DNA of 64,000 nucleotides, taken from the NCBI GenBank assembly GCA_013414765.1, contig CP058708.1, forward strand, positions 1,917,553-1,981,552, read 5' to 3'. The notes under the pieces were generated by a model. It worked only from the letters and a program-made list of their open reading frames with translations, did no database searches and was not told the DNA's origin. Shown here piece after piece: positions 21,491 to 53,505 of the stretch. Position numbers and translations under genes: made by a program. The DNA is from Candidatus Accumulibacter cognatus. GTDB lineage: Bacteria > Pseudomonadota > Gammaproteobacteria > Burkholderiales > Rhodocyclaceae. The stretch's first letter is position 1, and the number at the start of each line of letters is the position of its first letter.

Positions 21491-21721
21491 ATGCCGACAA
21501 TTCAAGCTTCCGAATTCAAAGCCAAGTGCCTTGCCTTGATGGACGAGGTCGCCAGCAAGGGCGAAATCTGGGTCGTGACAAAGAACGGCCGCCCGATCGC
21601 CGAGTTGCATCCGTACCGCGGTGGACGTTCCACCTCACCCTTCGGCTTGCACCCCAAACTCGAAATATCCGGCGACATTGTCGAACCGCTCGATGAGGTC
21701 GAATGGAAGGCGCTGGCGTGA
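21491..21721 (+). CDS. Type II antitoxin, Phd/YefM family
   Basis: 76 residues starting MPTIQASEFKAKCLALMDEV, the typical Phd/YefM fold, in which an N-terminal DNA-binding sheet/helix begins with an xxxxASEFKAxCL motif. TKNGRPIAELHP follows, then a C-terminal toxin-binding tail with DEVEW. It should neutralise the PIN toxin encoded next and repress the operon at the operator just upstream. The start is at 21491; ATGs further upstream lie in the promoter. Its stop overlaps the toxin GTG by 4 bp, giving translational coupling. Confidence 0.88.
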   Translation: MPTIQASEFKAKCLALMDEVASKGEIWVVTKNGRPIAELHPYRGGRSTSPFGLHPKLEISGDIVEPLDEVEWKALA

Positions 21722-22119
21722 TCGTTCTCGACACCCACGCCCTGCTCTGGATGGATCGGGATGACCCGGCTCTCGGCCCGTTCGCGCGGTGCCTGATCGA
21801 AGATGTCTGGCGCGCAGGTCAAGTCGCCGTGAGTGCCATCAGCTTTTGGGAGGCGGCCATGCTCGCGCAGCGCGGGCGTATCGTGCTGCCCCTTCCAGCG
21901 ACAGAATGGCGTTCCGAGCTGCTACAGGCCGGCCTTCGGGAATTCGCGCTGGATGGCCGCATCGGCATCCTCGCCACCCAACTGGAAAACATGCACCGTG
22001 ACCCCGCCGACCGTTTCATCGTGGCTACTTCGTTGCAACACCAGGCAACGCTGATCACAGCCGACGTGAGCATACTGGCGTGGGCATCGCATTTGCCGCG
22101 ACAGGATGCGCGCTTGTGA
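21718..22119 (+). CDS. Type II toxin, PIN-domain VapC-like ribonuclease
   Basis: 133 residues from the GTG at 21718. VIVLDTHALLW carries the first PIN acidic residue (Asp5), SAISFWEAAML the conserved Glu, and DPADRFIVATS with LITAD the remaining acidic cluster. VapC toxins cleave RNA, often tRNA or rRNA, in a Mg-dependent way. Paired by a GTGA overlap with the Phd-like antitoxin. All catalytic acids appear present, so the pair is probably functional. It sits just inside the left edge of the island. Confidence 0.9.
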   Translation: MIVLDTHALLWMDRDDPALGPFARCLIEDVWRAGQVAVSAISFWEAAMLAQRGRIVLPLPATEWRSELLQAGLREFALDGRIGILATQLENMHRDPADRFIVATSLQHQATLITADVSILAWASHLPRQDARL

Positions 22120-22839: not shown

Positions 22840-24840
22840 TTGTTAAAGATCAGCGGGGTGCTTGTCGTCTGCTGGTTGATGTTGGCCGGCTGCATGCCGC
22901 AGCGCGCCCAGGTCACGATGCTGCAAGCGCCTGAGATTGCGGCGGCAGCCGCCTACAAGTCGATTTCGGTGGCCCGTTTTTCCGGGCAGTATGGCGATAG
23001 CGTGGCGCTGGCCATGGAAAGCGAGATGATCAACGCGCGTGTTCAGGACAAGCCCGTTTACCGCTCGGTGAGCCGCGCACCCGAGGGGCGCTCGCTCGCT
23101 GGCGACAACCGCTCTTTAGCCAGTACAGCGCGTTCCCAGGGAAGCGAAGCGATTCTTGTCGGTGAGGTGATTCTGGCTAACGTCCAGGATCGACGCAGCA
23201 GCACGACGCAGTTCATCTGCGATCAAGCGGCCAACCCGAAGAAACTTGTCAGCAAGTGCGTTTCTGGTCGCAACGTCACCGTTCCTTGTCTTTCCCGTAG
23301 CGCCAGCATGCAGGTTCAAGTCCGGCTGATCGATGCGAAAACCGGCAACACCGTTTTCAGTCAGGCGATTGCCAAAGACGCCAGCAGCGAGGCCTGCGGT
23401 AACGACTCGCCGGCGGATGGCGGCGTGCTGCTAGGCAAAGCGCAGGCGGCGGTTGTCGACGAAGTCATGCGCAAAATTGTTCCCCACGAGCGCCGCATGG
23501 CGATTTCGCTGATGGACCCCGATGACCAGATTCGCTCGCCGGCCAACAAGGAGCGCTTTGCCGGCGCGATCAAGTTCGCCACTGGCGGACGCATGGACCG
23601 TGCCTGCGAGATGCTGCGTGAAGTTTATGAGCAAGAGAGAGAATCGGTAGCGCTCAACTATGACCTTGGCGTTTGCGAGGAGGCGGCGGGGGCTTTCTGG
23701 AAGGCGAACGAGCACTACCGGATCGCCGACCGCCTGACCAATGCGCCAAACACCCTGATTACCGCCGCGTTGGCGCGCAACGAGCAGAACATCAAGAAAG
23801 CGGGGGCGATGGCCAACGTGCGCTCGGACCTCTTGAAAACCGACCGCATTGAGGCCGGCGCTGCGCCGCAAACGATCAACCAGCCCGGCTCTCGGCCATT
23901 TGTTCAGCAGCCTCCGCCGAGGCCGCCGACGAACATCAGTCCCGATGATCTTTTTATCGGCCAGCGCAGCGCCTTGGTGATTGGCAACGCGAAGTACCGG
24001 CGCGGCGCGCTGCAAAACCCCGTCAACGACGCGCGCGCCATGACTGCCGAGTTGCGGAAAGCGGGCTTCCAGGTCATCGCCGTCGAAGACGCCGGGCTCG
24101 ACCGCCTCCAGGCGGCGATCGACGAGTTCGGCAGAGCGATCAAACCTGGCGGCGCGGCTCTAGTTTTTTACGCCGGACACGGCATGCAGGTCGGCGGTGA
24201 AAACTACCTGATCCCCGTGGACGCCGACCTCAAGCGAGAGACCGACGTGCAGGCGAAGACACTCAATTTGGCGGCGATTCTCAGAAAACTCGAAGACTCG
24301 CAATCGCGGGTCAATGTTGTCATCCTGGACGCCTGCCGTGATAACCCATTTGCGCGATCGTGGCGTTCAGCGGGCAGAGGGGGTCTTGCCTCGATCGACG
24401 CGCCGACCGGGACAGTCATCGCTTTCGCCACGGCGCCAGGCAAGACAGCCGAGGACGGCGCTGGCAGCAACGGCCTATTCACGACGCATCTGTTGCGACA
24501 AATCAGAATCCCCAATCAGAAGATCGAGGACGTCCTCAAGAACACTCGCAAGGGCGTCGCCGCAGATTCCCGCAACGAGCAGATTCCATGGGATTCTTCG
24601 TCGCTGACCGGCGACTTCTATTTCAAGGTCAGCAACTCTGCCATGAGCCCCAAGCCTGCTATTGTGGCAGCGGAAGAAGCTCCCGCAGAAGCCGCGACGC
24701 TGGCTAGGAGAAACCTGACCGTCAATGATCAACAAGCCGTGACTCACGACAATCCGCCAGCACAAGCCGCTTCTTCTGACGGGGGTTCGCTCGGTGGCTT
24801 GTTCAACTCGCTCAAGGGGCTTTTTCGGCCGATCGATTGA
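22840..24840 (+). CDS. Caspase-like lipoprotein with CsgG/LpoB-like N-terminal region
   Basis: 666 residues. TTG start with strong GGGGAGGA site 9 bp upstream. A lipoprotein signal ends LMLAGC (Cys18). Residues about 38-180 (YKSISVARFSG, SEAILVGEV, VRLIDAKTGNTVFSQ) resemble the CsgG/LpoB fold; about 240-310 is TPR-like (MLREVYEQE, VALNYDLGVCEEAAG). A Pro-rich linker leads to a C14 caspase p20 domain (376-590) with ALVIGNAKY, catalytic His447 in FYAGHGMQ and Cys499 in VILDACRDNPF. It should be exported and lipid-anchored; substrates are unknown. A lipoprotein gene at 26237 was probably its operon partner before the ISAzo13 insertion. Confidence 0.88.
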   Translation: MLKISGVLVVCWLMLAGCMPQRAQVTMLQAPEIAAAAAYKSISVARFSGQYGDSVALAMESEMINARVQDKPVYRSVSRAPEGRSLAGDNRSLASTARSQGSEAILVGEVILANVQDRRSSTTQFICDQAANPKKLVSKCVSGRNVTVPCLSRSASMQVQVRLIDAKTGNTVFSQAIAKDASSEACGNDSPADGGVLLGKAQAAVVDEVMRKIVPHERRMAISLMDPDDQIRSPANKERFAGAIKFATGGRMDRACEMLREVYEQERESVALNYDLGVCEEAAGAFWKANEHYRIADRLTNAPNTLITAALARNEQNIKKAGAMANVRSDLLKTDRIEAGAAPQTINQPGSRPFVQQPPPRPPTNISPDDLFIGQRSALVIGNAKYRRGALQNPVNDARAMTAELRKAGFQVIAVEDAGLDRLQAAIDEFGRAIKPGGAALVFYAGHGMQVGGENYLIPVDADLKRETDVQAKTLNLAAILRKLEDSQSRVNVVILDACRDNPFARSWRSAGRGGLASIDAPTGTVIAFATAPGKTAEDGAGSNGLFTTHLLRQIRIPNQKIEDVLKNTRKGVAADSRNEQIPWDSSSLTGDFYFKVSNSAMSPKPAIVAAEEAPAEAATLARRNLTVNDQQAVTHDNPPAQAASSDGGSLGGLFNSLKGLFRPID

Positions 24841-24937: not shown

Positions 24938-25516
24938 ATGAAGCTCGGTACTGATGAAGGAAGTCACGTTCGTCTCGAGGCCAGTCACCTGGAAGATATC
25001 CAACTTGCTTCGAGCAAGATGACGGGTGCGGACCGCCGGGCGTTTCAGGCGGAGATGGCGTTGAAGTACTGTGGCGGCAATCCTCGACGCGCGGAGGACG
25101 TCTTCGGATGGAGCCGGAAGGCGGCGCAGCTTGGCTTGCACGAGAAGCGTAGCGGGATGGTTTGTTTGGGGCATCACCAGTTCTGCTGCGGAGCCAAATT
25201 GTGGGAAGAGAAGCACCCGGAGGTGGCACAGGCCCTCTGGGCAGTGGCACGCAGCCATTCCCAACAGGATCCGACCTTTCGCCCGACGCTGTCGTTCACC
25301 CGCTTGACGGCCGAGGAAGCGATCAAGCAGTTGCGGGCGCAAGGATTTGCCGAGGACGTGCTGCCCTCCAGGAGCTGCATGTCGGAAGTGTTGAACCGTA
25401 ATGGGTACCGGCTGCGTCCGGTGATCAAGGCCAAACCCCAAAAAAAGTCCCCGAAACCGACGCCATCTTTACCAACATCCAGCGACAGGACCGGGCTTGC
25501 GAAGGCAAAGCCGTGA
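24938..25516 (+). CDS. ISAzo13-family transposase, upstream frame
   Basis: Encodes the N-terminal DNA-binding part: MKLGTDEGSHVRLEASHLED, MTGADRRAFQAEMALKYCGG, a helix-turn-helix around NPRRAEDVFGWSRKAAQLGL, and NRNGYRLRPVIKAKPQKK. The ATG at 24938 is preceded by GGAGGG at a good distance; an ATG at 24929 touches that site. At 25441-25447 the slippery heptamer A AAA AAG lies in the correct phase for -1 slippage, after which the frame stays open to 26169. The fused product would be about 410 residues, a normal length for the family. Codons after 25447 in this frame are not protein-like. Confidence 0.85.
   Translation: MKLGTDEGSHVRLEASHLEDIQLASSKMTGADRRAFQAEMALKYCGGNPRRAEDVFGWSRKAAQLGLHEKRSGMVCLGHHQFCCGAKLWEEKHPEVAQALWAVARSHSQQDPTFRPTLSFTRLTAEEAIKQLRAQGFAEDVLPSRSCMSEVLNRNGYRLRPVIKAKPQKKSPKPTPSLPTSSDRTGLAKAKP
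25441..25447 (+). promoter_or_regulatory. Programmed -1 frameshift site A AAA AAG
   Basis: Seven-base slippery heptamer in the X XXY YYZ phase relative to the upstream frame (codons CAA AAA AAG). Slippage by -1 continues as GTC CCC GAA ACC, which reads VPETDAIFTNIQ, the family-like continuation. Confidence 0.75.
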
Positions 25517-26169
25517 TGCGCTTGAGCATCGACTGCAAGGCGACGGTGAAGATTGGCGAGTACTCGCGAGGCGGCCAGACGCGGGGCGACCCTAAAGCGG
25601 CCGACCACGATATGGGATGCGAGGAAAAACACCCCCCGTTTGGCGTGGTCAACGAAGACAGCGGACAACTGCACCTGTCCTTCGGAAGCTCGGCCAAGAC
25701 CAGCGATTTCCTCGTCGACAGCCTCTACGCCTGGTGGAAGTGTCAATCGCCAAAGGAGCAGGCTCGTGTCACGGACCTGCAGATCAAGACCGATAACGGG
25801 CCGGAGAGCAGCGGCCGACGCACCCAAGTCCTCAAGCGAATGGTCGAGTTTGCCGATCACACCGGCAAGTCCATCCACCTTCTGTACTATCCGCCCTACC
25901 ACAGCAAATACAATCCCGTCGAGCGTTGCTGGGGAATCCTCGAAAAGCACTGGAACGGCGCCAAACTGACCGATACGCAAACGATGCTCGAGTGGGCCAA
26001 GAGCATGACCTGGAAAGGGCTTCATCCCATCGTCGAGTTGAGCCGCACAGCCTATCAGAAAGGAGTTTCCCTCGGCAAAGACGCCATGCAAGCTGTCGAA
26101 TCCAGACTGGAACGAAACCCGCTTCTACCCAAGTGGGACATCTTGATCCGACCGGCTTGCTTGGTATAA
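25513..26169 (+). CDS. ISAzo13-family transposase, downstream (catalytic) frame
   Basis: The catalytic DDE domain: LSIDCKATVKIGEYSRGG (first Asp), LQIKTDNGPESSGRRTQ (second Asp) and YPPYHSKYNPVERCWGILEK (Glu), all three present. The frame is open from the slippery site at 25447, so this is the C-terminal half of a fusion transposase. An ATG at 25513 could also allow separate translation. With both halves and ends present the element may still be active. Confidence 0.88.
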   Translation: MMRLSIDCKATVKIGEYSRGGQTRGDPKAADHDMGCEEKHPPFGVVNEDSGQLHLSFGSSAKTSDFLVDSLYAWWKCQSPKEQARVTDLQIKTDNGPESSGRRTQVLKRMVEFADHTGKSIHLLYYPPYHSKYNPVERCWGILEKHWNGAKLTDTQTMLEWAKSMTWKGLHPIVELSRTAYQKGVSLGKDAMQAVESRLERNPLLPKWDILIRPACLV

Positions 26170-27366: not shown

Positions 27367-28725
27367 ATGTCCCATTTCATCGTCACCGATCGCAAGACCG
27401 ACTACCTGCTGCCGCCGTCACTCGACGATTGGTTGAACGAGGATCATTTGGCGCGATTCATTGTGGAGGTGATCGACTCGCTTGATTTGTCGAAGCTGAC
27501 GCGGCAGTACGCTGGACGGGGATCGAAGGCGTACCATCCGGCGACGCTGCTGGCCATTCTGGTCTATGGCTACGCGACGGGTATTTTCTCCAGCCGCAGG
27601 CTGGAGCAGGCGACCTACGATTCGGTCGCCTTTCGCTACATTGCCGCCGGCAGCCATCCCGATCACGACAGCCTGGCGACGTTCCGCCGGCGTTTTCTGG
27701 AGGAACTGAGCGACTTGTTCGTGCAGGTTCTGGAGATGGCCCGGGAGATGAAGCTGCTGAAACTGGGCAATGTCTGTCTTGACGGCACGAAGATTCAGGC
27801 CAACGCCTCCCGCCACCGTGCGCTTTCGCACGGCCACATCGAAAAGCTGGAAGCGCAACTCAAGGCGGAGGTGCAGGAACTGTTCGCGCTGGCCGAACAG
27901 GCGGATCAGGCGGAGGTTCCGGACGGCGTCAGCCTGCCGGAAGAAATCAAGCGCCGCGAAGATCGGCTGGTGGCGATGGCGGCGGCCAAGGCGAAGATTG
28001 CGGCGCGGGCCGAGGAGCGCTATCAGCGAGAGAAGGCGCAGTACGACGAGAAGATGGCGCGGCGCAAGGCGAAAGAAGAAGAGACCGGCAGGAAGTGGGG
28101 GGGCAGAGTGCCCAAAGCCCCCGAGCCCGGCGTACGGGACAGTGACCAGATCAATCTGACCGACGAAGAATCGCGCATCATGCCGGTGGCCGGTGGCGGC
28201 TTCGAGCAGGCGTACAACGCCCAGGCGGCGGTTGATCCCGCGACCCTGCTGGTGGTGGCGGTCGGCGTGACGCAAGCCCCCAACGACAAGGAGCAGGTCG
28301 AGCCGATGCTGGCGACGCTCCAGGCGCAGGCCGATGGGCTGGGTTCCGTGCACGGGATGATCGCCGACACGGGCTTCTACAGCGAGAAGAACATCAAGGC
28401 GTGCGAGGCGGCCGGCATCGTCCCCTTGATCGCGGTGGCGCGCGACGAGCACCATCCTGACTGGCGGGAGCGGCATAGCGAACCGGCCGCGCTACCGGAG
28501 AATGCGACACCCGTGCAGGCCATGTCGCATCGTTTGAAGACCAGAGCGGGGCGAGCGCTCTATGCGTTGCGCAAGCAGACCGTCGAGCCGGTCTTCGGCA
28601 TCATCAAGTCGGTCATGGGCTTTCGCCAGTTTTCCTTGCGGGGTTGGCAGAAGGTCACCGGGGAATGGATGCTGGTCTGCCTGGCGTGGAATTTGAAGCG
28701 CATGGCCAAGTTGCGCCCGCAGTAG
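27367..28725 (+). CDS. IS1182-family transposase
   Basis: 452 residues starting MSHFIVTDRKTDYLLPPSLD. N-terminal DUF772-type domain (YHPATLLAILVYGYATGIFSS), then the DDE domain with CLDGTKIQA (Asp), MIADTGFYSE (Asp) and QTVEPVFGIIKSVMG (Glu). A long charged coiled-coil insertion lies between the first and second Asp (about 160-250). Start ATG after GGAGGTCCGGC. All catalytic residues are present and both ends are perfect, so it is likely active. Confidence 0.95.
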   Translation: MSHFIVTDRKTDYLLPPSLDDWLNEDHLARFIVEVIDSLDLSKLTRQYAGRGSKAYHPATLLAILVYGYATGIFSSRRLEQATYDSVAFRYIAAGSHPDHDSLATFRRRFLEELSDLFVQVLEMAREMKLLKLGNVCLDGTKIQANASRHRALSHGHIEKLEAQLKAEVQELFALAEQADQAEVPDGVSLPEEIKRREDRLVAMAAAKAKIAARAEERYQREKAQYDEKMARRKAKEEETGRKWGGRVPKAPEPGVRDSDQINLTDEESRIMPVAGGGFEQAYNAQAAVDPATLLVVAVGVTQAPNDKEQVEPMLATLQAQADGLGSVHGMIADTGFYSEKNIKACEAAGIVPLIAVARDEHHPDWRERHSEPAALPENATPVQAMSHRLKTRAGRALYALRKQTVEPVFGIIKSVMGFRQFSLRGWQKVTGEWMLVCLAWNLKRMAKLRPQ

Positions 28726-51119: not shown

Positions 51120-52301
51120 CTACCTACCGCATTCCACCACCCGGAATTCCACCCTGCGGTCGATGGCGTCCTGGGCATCGTCGCTACCGGTGCCGATGAT
51201 ATTTTCCCGGAAACCCTTGCCGTAGGCCTTGGTCTTTTGCATGACCTGGGGGAAATCCTTTTGCATCAGCTTCTGAACCGCCAGGGCACGTTGCTGAGAG
51301 AGCTGATCGTTGTAGCGCTCATTGCCCGAGCGACTGCTGTGACCCACGATGTTCAGGCAGACTCCAGCTGTCGCCACCCGGCGGGCAATCTGGCGCAGCC
51401 ATAGGGCATACTGGCTGCGCAGCGAAGAATCTGCGACGAAATCCGTGGTTTTGACGGTGAATAGGAAGCGGGTACTCAGATTGTTATTGACCAGGCCCAC
51501 ATCCACCAGATTGGCGAAGGCTTTTTCCGCCTCCTGGTTCTGGCCCAGCTTGCGATAGCTCTGGTACAGGGCAGAATAGGTCTTCATCGTCTTGCCGTCG
51601 GCCCGACTCTCGGCCAGTTGGTAGAGATCGAGAGCGTTGGCGAAATCGCCGGCATCGAAACGGACGTCGGCTTCCGATAGCACCGCGGCTGTGGGCAGGG
51701 TATCGAAATAGGACTTGTCCGCCAACTCCCCGGTGTTCGACAAGGTGGTGGCGATATAGCCCTCAACCCGCTTGTCCTTCAGGTACATGGGGCTTTCCTT
51801 ATAGGAGGCAATGGGTTCGAAATTGAGTTTTTCCTTGGTCAGCCAGACTTCGGAATTGGCGATAATCATGCCGGTCTTCAAATCCACCACCGAGGACGAC
51901 ACCCTGTAATAGCCGGAACCGGAGGCCTTATCCAGACGGATGGTGCCATTGACCACGTATTGCGAAGTCCCCAAGTTTTTGACCGACATGTGTTCGATGG
52001 GGAATTCTGGGAAGGCGGACCGCACCTCACGCATCAACACCTGTTCGATCTGGCGACTGGTTTCATTGACTTCGGCCGTGTAGGCATCAATGAAAGGATC
52101 CACCACGAACGCCTTCTTGCCCATGCGGCCGACGAAATTCTGGCTGGCCCGTACCTGACCGAAGATGTCGGCGGCCAGGGCCTTGACGGCTGGCTCCAGC
52201 TCCATCGGGGTTTTGACTGTCGGCGACAGGGGCGCCGCGCAACCGGCCAGGAAGCCGAGTGAGGCCAGCAGACAGAGAACCCAGAAGCTCAGCGTGGGCA
52301 A
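51120..52301 (-). CDS. OmpA-family lipoprotein with CsgG/LpoB-like region, partner of caspase
   Basis: 393 residues. Lipoprotein signal ending FLAGC (Cys21). Residues about 30-190 (IFGQVRASQNFVGRMGKKAF, FPIEHMSVKNLG, SSVVDLKTGMIIANSEVWL) resemble an LpoB/CsgG-like fold. About 205-270 is TPR-like (FDAGDFANALDLYQLAESRA, YRKLGQNQEAEKAFANL). The C-terminal OmpA domain (about 290-393) has LNIVGHSSRSGNERYND, LSQQRALAVQKLM and DAIDRRVEFRVVE, binding peptidoglycan. It should link the outer membrane to the wall. It lies 28 bp after the caspase gene in the same orientation. Confidence 0.87.
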   Translation of the reverse strand: MPTLSFWVLCLLASLGFLAGCAAPLSPTVKTPMELEPAVKALAADIFGQVRASQNFVGRMGKKAFVVDPFIDAYTAEVNETSRQIEQVLMREVRSAFPEFPIEHMSVKNLGTSQYVVNGTIRLDKASGSGYYRVSSSVVDLKTGMIIANSEVWLTKEKLNFEPIASYKESPMYLKDKRVEGYIATTLSNTGELADKSYFDTLPTAAVLSEADVRFDAGDFANALDLYQLAESRADGKTMKTYSALYQSYRKLGQNQEAEKAFANLVDVGLVNNNLSTRFLFTVKTTDFVADSSLRSQYALWLRQIARRVATAGVCLNIVGHSSRSGNERYNDQLSQQRALAVQKLMQKDFPQVMQKTKAYGKGFRENIIGTGSDDAQDAIDRRVEFRVVECGR

Positions 52302-52329
52302 GGTGCGTCTCCCTCATGAATGGCTACGT

Positions 52330-53505
52330 TCATCGGCAGTTCTGACGATAATGGCTCATTTGTACATCGGTCAGGGGTTCCACGCCCATCGACAAGCGGG
52401 CCTGAAGGTCGCTGCACGTGCAACCGGGACAAACACCACCACTGGGTCGTGGGCCAGCAGCGATGGGCGTTGGTAGGAGGGCGGCCGTGGCGGGCGGGCG
52501 TGACGGCGGCTGATAGGTATTGACGGCAACCGGCGCAGGCGTTGTCGGGGGCGTTGATTCGGGCTTGGATAAATCCTTGAGCCGCGCCTTGGCCAGGGCA
52601 GCGAAGCGGCCCTTGGGATATTGGATGAGGTAGGCCTGGTAGTCCGACGCGGAGCGGCTGTTCCTGACATTGTCCCAAAAGGTCAGTTCTATCGCCGCCG
52701 GGTCCGCCGCGCTGGTGCCTACTGGAATGGGCGTGGCGCTACAGCCGCCGAAACAGAAATCACCCTCGATGGCCCCCTCCATCCAGGGTTCCTGCTCCCC
52801 TGCGGAGTCGGACTTGACGCCCCCGATGACCCGTTTCAGGGCCTGCTCGATGGCCACGCCGGGTTTGTCCATCTGGTTCAGCAGATGTAGGGTATAGAGG
52901 CCGTTGCGTCCATTGCCATCGGAGGCCACGCTGCCAGGACGGGTAGCGAAGGAAAGCAGGGTACCCGAGGGGACATTCACCTTGGCCAGACCGCCGGCGG
53001 CGGAACGGAAACGCCGGGCGAAGGGATTGTTGCGGCAGGCATCGAGAAACATCAAATTGAGCCGGGTCTTGGCCTCTTCCATGGTCTCCAGCACCAGGCT
53101 GACAGACATGCTTTGGCTTGGCACGTCTTCCTCACCCGCGATATCTGCATCCACCACCGGCAGGTAATTCACGCCCTTTACCTGAAGACCGTGTCCGGCG
53201 TAAAAAAACAGGGCCACGGCACCGGGGGTGAGTTTGGATTTGAATTCCCGCAGAGTCGGGCCGATCTCCTTTGTGGTCAGGTTTTCCCGCTTGATGACGG
53301 TGAACCCCAGGCCGAGCAACTTGGCCGCCATGTCCCGGGCGTCGTTGACAGGATTGGTTAGGGGAGATTTTTTGTAGTTGCTGTTGCCGATGACCAGGGC
53401 CACCTGTACCATGCCATCCTCAGACGCCAAAGCGATCCGCGGTGCCAGAGGCAGTCCCAGTGACAACAAGGACGCGAGGTAGATAAGAAAAGCCGGGCTC
53501 CGCAT
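52330..53505 (-). CDS. Exported caspase-like (C14) protein
   Basis: 391 residues from the ATG at 53505; upstream in-frame codons cross the promoter. Signal peptide FLIYLASLLSLGLPLAPRIA with cleavage near ALASED. Caspase p20 domain (about 33-270): VALVIGNSNYKKSPLTNPVN, catalytic His105 in FYAGHGLQ and Cys157 in FLDACRNNPFARRF. A helical segment follows (YQAYLIQYPKGRFAALAKAR) and then a Pro-rich region and a Cys-rich end (CPGCTCSDLQ). Activity in the periplasm is expected; substrates unknown. Same catalytic signatures as the island caspase at 22840. Confidence 0.92.
   Translation of the reverse strand: MRSPAFLIYLASLLSLGLPLAPRIALASEDGMVQVALVIGNSNYKKSPLTNPVNDARDMAAKLLGLGFTVIKRENLTTKEIGPTLREFKSKLTPGAVALFFYAGHGLQVKGVNYLPVVDADIAGEEDVPSQSMSVSLVLETMEEAKTRLNLMFLDACRNNPFARRFRSAAGGLAKVNVPSGTLLSFATRPGSVASDGNGRNGLYTLHLLNQMDKPGVAIEQALKRVIGGVKSDSAGEQEPWMEGAIEGDFCFGGCSATPIPVGTSAADPAAIELTFWDNVRNSRSASDYQAYLIQYPKGRFAALAKARLKDLSKPESTPPTTPAPVAVNTYQPPSRPPATAALLPTPIAAGPRPSGGVCPGCTCSDLQARLSMGVEPLTDVQMSHYRQNCR

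Follow-up and report, generated by a model that had tools for sequence, protein, structure and literature searches.

Within the window, the whole 64,000-nucleotide stretch of Candidatus Accumulibacter cognatus (contig CP058708.1) that was analysed, two adjacent genes at 51120-53505 encode an exported caspase and a lipoprotein. They lie on the minus strand in that order, separated by a gap of 28 nt, in agreement with the original prediction of neighbouring caspase and lipoprotein genes at this place. A second caspase gene, in an island at 22840-24840, was compared with the pair.

51120-52301, minus strand: partner lipoprotein, 393 aa, TTG start after GGGAG (translation, Pfam, AF2 model, Foldseek)
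Lipoprotein domains in order: lipobox with C21 (LAGC); LpoB/FlgO-like region, about residues 35-160; conserved DSP..D..GYI-type segment; TPR-like helices, about 200-270; OmpA-like domain, about 285-391
52330-53505, minus strand: exported caspase, peptidase C14, 391 aa (translation; Pfam PF00656, E 3.8e-34; dN/dS 0.09)
Caspase parts in order: signal peptide, C14 domain, FW..R repeat, Pro-rich linker, C-terminal cysteine tail
52333-52434, minus strand: C-terminal tail of the caspase, about CPGCTCSDLQARLSMGVEPLTDVQMSHYRQNCR, a proposed periplasmic docking element
22840-24840, plus strand: island lipoprotein with lipobox, weak CsgG-like region, TPR-like helices and caspase domain

In translation, the N-terminus of the window caspase resembles a signal peptide ending IALA/SE, and the C14 domain carries YAGHG and DACRN, the motifs of the His-Cys dyad; on its p20 caspase domain (PF00656) the protein fits the prokaryotic metacaspases/orthocaspases. 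The start at 53505 is supported, as the DNA upstream of it holds no protein-level conservation in a sister genome. The closest match in its own genome, 55% over 305 aa, is a caspase that ends in an FGE-type domain, so that the C-terminus of the window caspase seems to have been exchanged. Membership of the EACC1-associated caspases (NCBIfam NF047832) was rejected, with 47.6 bits against a cut-off of 140 bits. Both genes of the pair are under purifying selection: against the nearest named genome, Candidatus Accumulibacter vicinus UBA5574 (97% in the lipoprotein), dN/dS is 0.12 for the lipoprotein and 0.09 for the caspase, and against a 66-67% relative it is 0.20 and 0.10, respectively.

The AF2 model of the lipoprotein, built from 45 sequences (pLDDT 91, pTM 0.87), matched many OmpA-like domains in the PDB by Foldseek, along with the C-terminal domain of LpoB (4q6l, E 9.6e-4), which upholds the LpoB/CsgG-type region that had been proposed from the sequence. 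Pfam finds the OmpA domain (PF00691, E 9.3e-8) and a weak TPR match, and detects PF13036 in 1/19 members of the lipoprotein family (E 0.0027). Matches to ZorB in an anti-phage database and to designed PPR proteins in the PDB were set aside, being confined to the OmpA-like domain and the helical-repeat region, respectively. Across the family, the lipobox cysteine is invariant, and the OmpA-like end has two invariant cysteines of its own. In A. baumannii OmpA, diaminopimelate (DAP) is bound through D271 and R286 (PMC6572160); in our alignment the Arg is kept, whilst the Asp is absent, a Ser standing in its place in 79/80 relatives. Ordinary binding of peptidoglycan by this lipoprotein is thus not assured, and it may or may not be wall-bound, as had originally been envisaged.

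A cysteine tail encoded upstream of the lipoprotein

The C-terminal tail of the caspase belongs to a family of segments of ~35 residues, with the consensus RC..LL.R.SLGE.LS..E...L...C and two invariant cysteines. Homologues of the lipoprotein were collected from the genomes of relatives and from named genomes (356 stretches encoding relatives, 80 loci kept), the latter including Burkholderiales, Rhodocyclales, Thiomargarita, Rokubacteria and others. Of the 112 lipoprotein loci, 91 have the tail (E<=1e-4) on the ORF immediately before the lipoprotein (a count that includes a few duplicates, where the same locus came from two collections), and some of the lipoproteins have no tail partner. Among 7205 ORFs there were only two further strong tail matches, both of which precede a second copy of the lipoprotein. 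Tail genes and lipoprotein genes often overlap by a few nucleotides, suggesting that their translation is coupled.

This pairing holds when the tail profile is run over 101 whole related genomes irrespective of locus: each of the 19 matches with E<1e-9 is followed, after 24-195 nt and in the same orientation, by a lipoprotein match, and the remaining four (E>2e-3) are unrelated and not paired with a lipoprotein. The genome of the window itself yields a single match, on the window caspase (E 7.5e-13), and the profile finds no tail on the other 13 caspase-domain genes of that genome. Outside the data used for the profile, an alphaproteobacterial plasmid carries a tail gene (E 1e-15) followed by the lipoprotein. 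Plasmid carriage as a trait of the module was discarded, this being the one plasmid match that we found. The plasmid is the megaplasmid of Indioceanicola profundi (NZ_CP030127.1; L264 2938-5128), where the body of the partner has no Pfam match at all. Our class- and phylum-wide surveys scored the best few candidates per genome, and so yield no figure for abundance.

Exchangeable partners of a constant lipoprotein

The bodies of the 91 tail-bearing partners are diverse: 34 are Ser/Thr kinases, 8 TIR proteins, 8 class III cyclase-like proteins, in which the domain often falls under the Pfam cut-off, and 3 caspases, whilst the reference set left 38 unclassified, among them small secreted proteins, DUF4384 proteins and multi-helix proteins. 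One or three predicted membrane helices separate the enzyme domain from the tail in 45/50 of the kinase, TIR and cyclase-like partners, and in most membrane partners a Pro/Ala-rich linker follows the helix. Together with the N-terminal signals of the caspases, these predicted helices place the tail in the periplasm, the compartment of the lipoprotein.

Along the lipoprotein tree, the class of the partner switches at least 13 times, and the Accumulibacter caspase partners form one clade adjoining cyclase-like partners. Tail identity tracks lipoprotein identity across differing partner classes, in a correlation (rho 0.57, against 0.23 for the best of 500 permutations) that is inflated by shared descent. 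The genome survey that had been proposed as a check of the pair finds it in three Accumulibacter-type genomes, at dN/dS of about 0.1-0.2, and finds caspase, tail and lipoprotein together again in two other lineages, from two other families (L266, L269, L270; L291, L295, L304). The caspase tree requires at least three gains of caspases into the module. In these two lineages the caspases bear degenerate tails (E 2e-6 to 0.03), and in one of the two families they also have lipobox-like starts. Both the tail shared by the proteins that precede the lipoprotein and these separate recruitments support a functional partnership of caspase and lipoprotein.

In Variovorax/Xenophilus (L103, L105, L108-L127, L130) the tail partner is mostly about 115-190 aa, consisting of a signal peptide, a C.TPCL-type motif, a Pro/Ala linker and the tail, with no recognised enzyme. 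Two tandem modules of tail partner and lipoprotein occur at L162 4127-10020 and L165 1027-7191. Some soil bacteria that have a version of the module can be cultured, Variovorax paradoxus among them.

A probable modular system at the cell envelope

We consider it fairly probable that the pair belongs to a modular envelope system, in which the tail docks an exchangeable partner on a constant lipoprotein. The lipoprotein, with its LpoB-like, TPR and OmpA-like parts, would be the socket, lipid-anchored in a membrane; the variable partner, encoded just upstream, bears the helix-LG-helix tail, which probably folds into a helical hairpin closed by a disulphide between its two cysteines and would dock on the lipoprotein from within the periplasm. 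In most lineages the partner would be a cytoplasmic kinase, TIR or cyclase-like domain, joined to the tail by usually one membrane helix and the Pro/Ala-rich linker, and docking could pass a signal from the envelope to the cytoplasmic enzyme. In the window lineage and two others, the partner is a caspase that appears to be wholly exported; as the enzyme is itself periplasmic, docking would place and control a protease in the periplasm. Here, we posit that the lipoprotein might read the state of the envelope or peptidoglycan, hold the presumably active caspase at the envelope and control proteolysis, the substrates of which would probably be envelope proteins. A lipoprotein that senses and controls the caspase was also envisaged in the original prediction. 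More tentatively, and at somewhat less than even likelihood, the tail could be a universal plug that wires at least seven unrelated outputs, among them kinase, TIR, nucleotide cyclase, J-protein and caspase, to one lipoprotein sensor, the output being swapped whilst the input is kept, with the periplasmic caspase as executor of the response; such an architecture of envelope signalling would be categorically new.

Perhaps the tail is instead a general periplasmic anchor or a dimerisation hairpin, and the lipoprotein a co-transcribed neighbour that acts separately. Short helical hairpins with two cysteines are indeed able to pair with themselves, and tails without an adjoining lipoprotein do occur in another family, whose genomes are partly fragmented and whose partners include DnaJ-domain proteins; there, the lipoprotein lies directly downstream in 16/30 tail genes and after an inserted gene in one more, leaving about 13/30 with none directly downstream. 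However, tail and lipoprotein have remained together over at least 13 changes of partner, the pairing is strict in the 101 genomes, and tail and lipoprotein diverge in a correlated manner across partner classes, so that we regard a general anchor as unlikely.

The tail shared by otherwise unrelated partners suggests an undescribed plug-and-socket wiring of different enzymes to the cell envelope; in the open-library literature, neither the tail nor a lipoprotein with exchangeable partners turned up in our searches. Bacterial caspases have mostly been studied intracellularly, and to our knowledge few of their triggers have been established. The conserved tail could offer a handle on such a trigger, and a single binding assay would test the whole family. 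Moreover, in Burkholderiales, Rhodocyclales and their relatives, the pairing would assign a partner to many membrane kinases and TIR proteins that are now orphans.

Each of the known systems that resembles this one does so in part. YfiB, an OmpA-like lipoprotein thought to control the inner-membrane signalling enzyme YfiN, a cyclase, via periplasmic contact, offers the same combination of OmpA-like lipoprotein and signalling enzyme, and YfiB structures are among the fold matches of our lipoprotein. However, YfiB lacks both the LpoB-like and the TPR part, the YfiN output is not exchangeable, and YfiR is a separate protein, in contrast to the shared tail of the present module. LpoB, the activator lipoprotein of the peptidoglycan synthase PBP1B, shares the lipid anchor and the fold of the first domain (4q6l), whereas the present lipoprotein extends further into TPR-like and OmpA-like parts and has signalling proteins as its partners. 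In the EACC1-caspase and EAD conflict systems, a small constant adaptor is likewise combined with exchangeable effectors, including a caspase or cyclase; EACC1 is a protein with a membrane helix, and EADs are adaptor domains common to sensors and effectors (PMC7159879), whereas the present module pairs a periplasmic-side tail with a lipoprotein. A 2012 survey of metacaspases lists 14 operons of these proteases with OmpA domains, and 46 metacaspases that may have signal peptides; the part of the survey consulted mentions no tail, exchangeable partners or LpoB-like lipoprotein (PMC3501461).

The island protein and other caspases of the genome

The partnership of caspase and lipoprotein had originally been argued from a fused gene in the island, at 22840-24840, and a split version of the same parts at 51120-53505. 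Whilst the partnership itself finds support in the shared tail and the repeated recruitment of caspases, this Rosetta-stone argument is unsupported at the sequence level. An hhalign comparison of the island N-terminus (3 island homologues) with the lipoprotein family gave a probability of 0.6%, confined to a few TPR columns, and the island protein has neither an OmpA domain nor the cysteine tail; we therefore do not take the island protein for a fused version of the pair, and that the two hold the same parts was not confirmed. Its CsgG match lies under the Pfam cut-off in all 3 homologues (E 0.003-0.011), the region also has weak similarity to GNA1162, and a single-sequence model of it reached a pLDDT of 41, too low to be informative. 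That the island protein and the pair are forms of one caspase-CsgG sensor module might still be argued from their lipid anchors, their TPR-like helices, an N-terminus of at least weak CsgG/LpoB character in each, and caspases that are about 49% identical and both retain YAGHG and DACR(N/D)NPFAR in translation, as had been predicted. Set against the undetectable homology of the N-termini, the missing OmpA domain and tail, full-length island homologues in only two of 100 relatives, and the many other domains to which exported caspases of this genome are joined, we judge a common module to be very improbable. Mere chance, with an exported caspase and an OmpA lipoprotein happening to share an operon, deserves hardly any credence: each is a common kind of gene, but the pair is kept under selection in three Accumulibacter-type genomes and recurs, with the tail, in two other lineages.

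Around the island, two small adjacent genes upstream (21606-22119) look by eye like an antitoxin and PIN-type toxin pair, and transposase-like genes lie downstream (25513-26169 and 27367-28725).

An extracytoplasmic caspase with such a partner had originally seemed little described; exported caspases as such are not a rarity here. The genome has 14 caspase-domain matches, about ten of which look exported by eye, with a signal peptide, Tat-like signal or lipobox, and the exported ones are joined to many different domains. A paralogous lipoprotein (G000 2179988-2184107; L084, L025) precedes a WD40-repeat caspase of about 1030 aa that appears to be exported, as well as a gene for a kinase whose C-terminus is DUF4384-like; this arrangement of paralogous lipoprotein and tail-less WD40-caspase is kept in nine Accumulibacter loci or relatives.

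Elsewhere, exported caspases have C-terminal FGE/SUMF1-type domains (L016 4815-7214, L021 4773-7220). This fold class is targeted by diversity-generating retroelements in multicellular bacteria, and Accumulibacter species are named as carriers of such elements (PMC10907252). At L078 4989-7454, a single 821-aa frame joins the lipoprotein to an FGE-type domain, apparently a true fusion within the lipoprotein family, and a protein related to the WD40-caspases adjoins it on the opposite strand.
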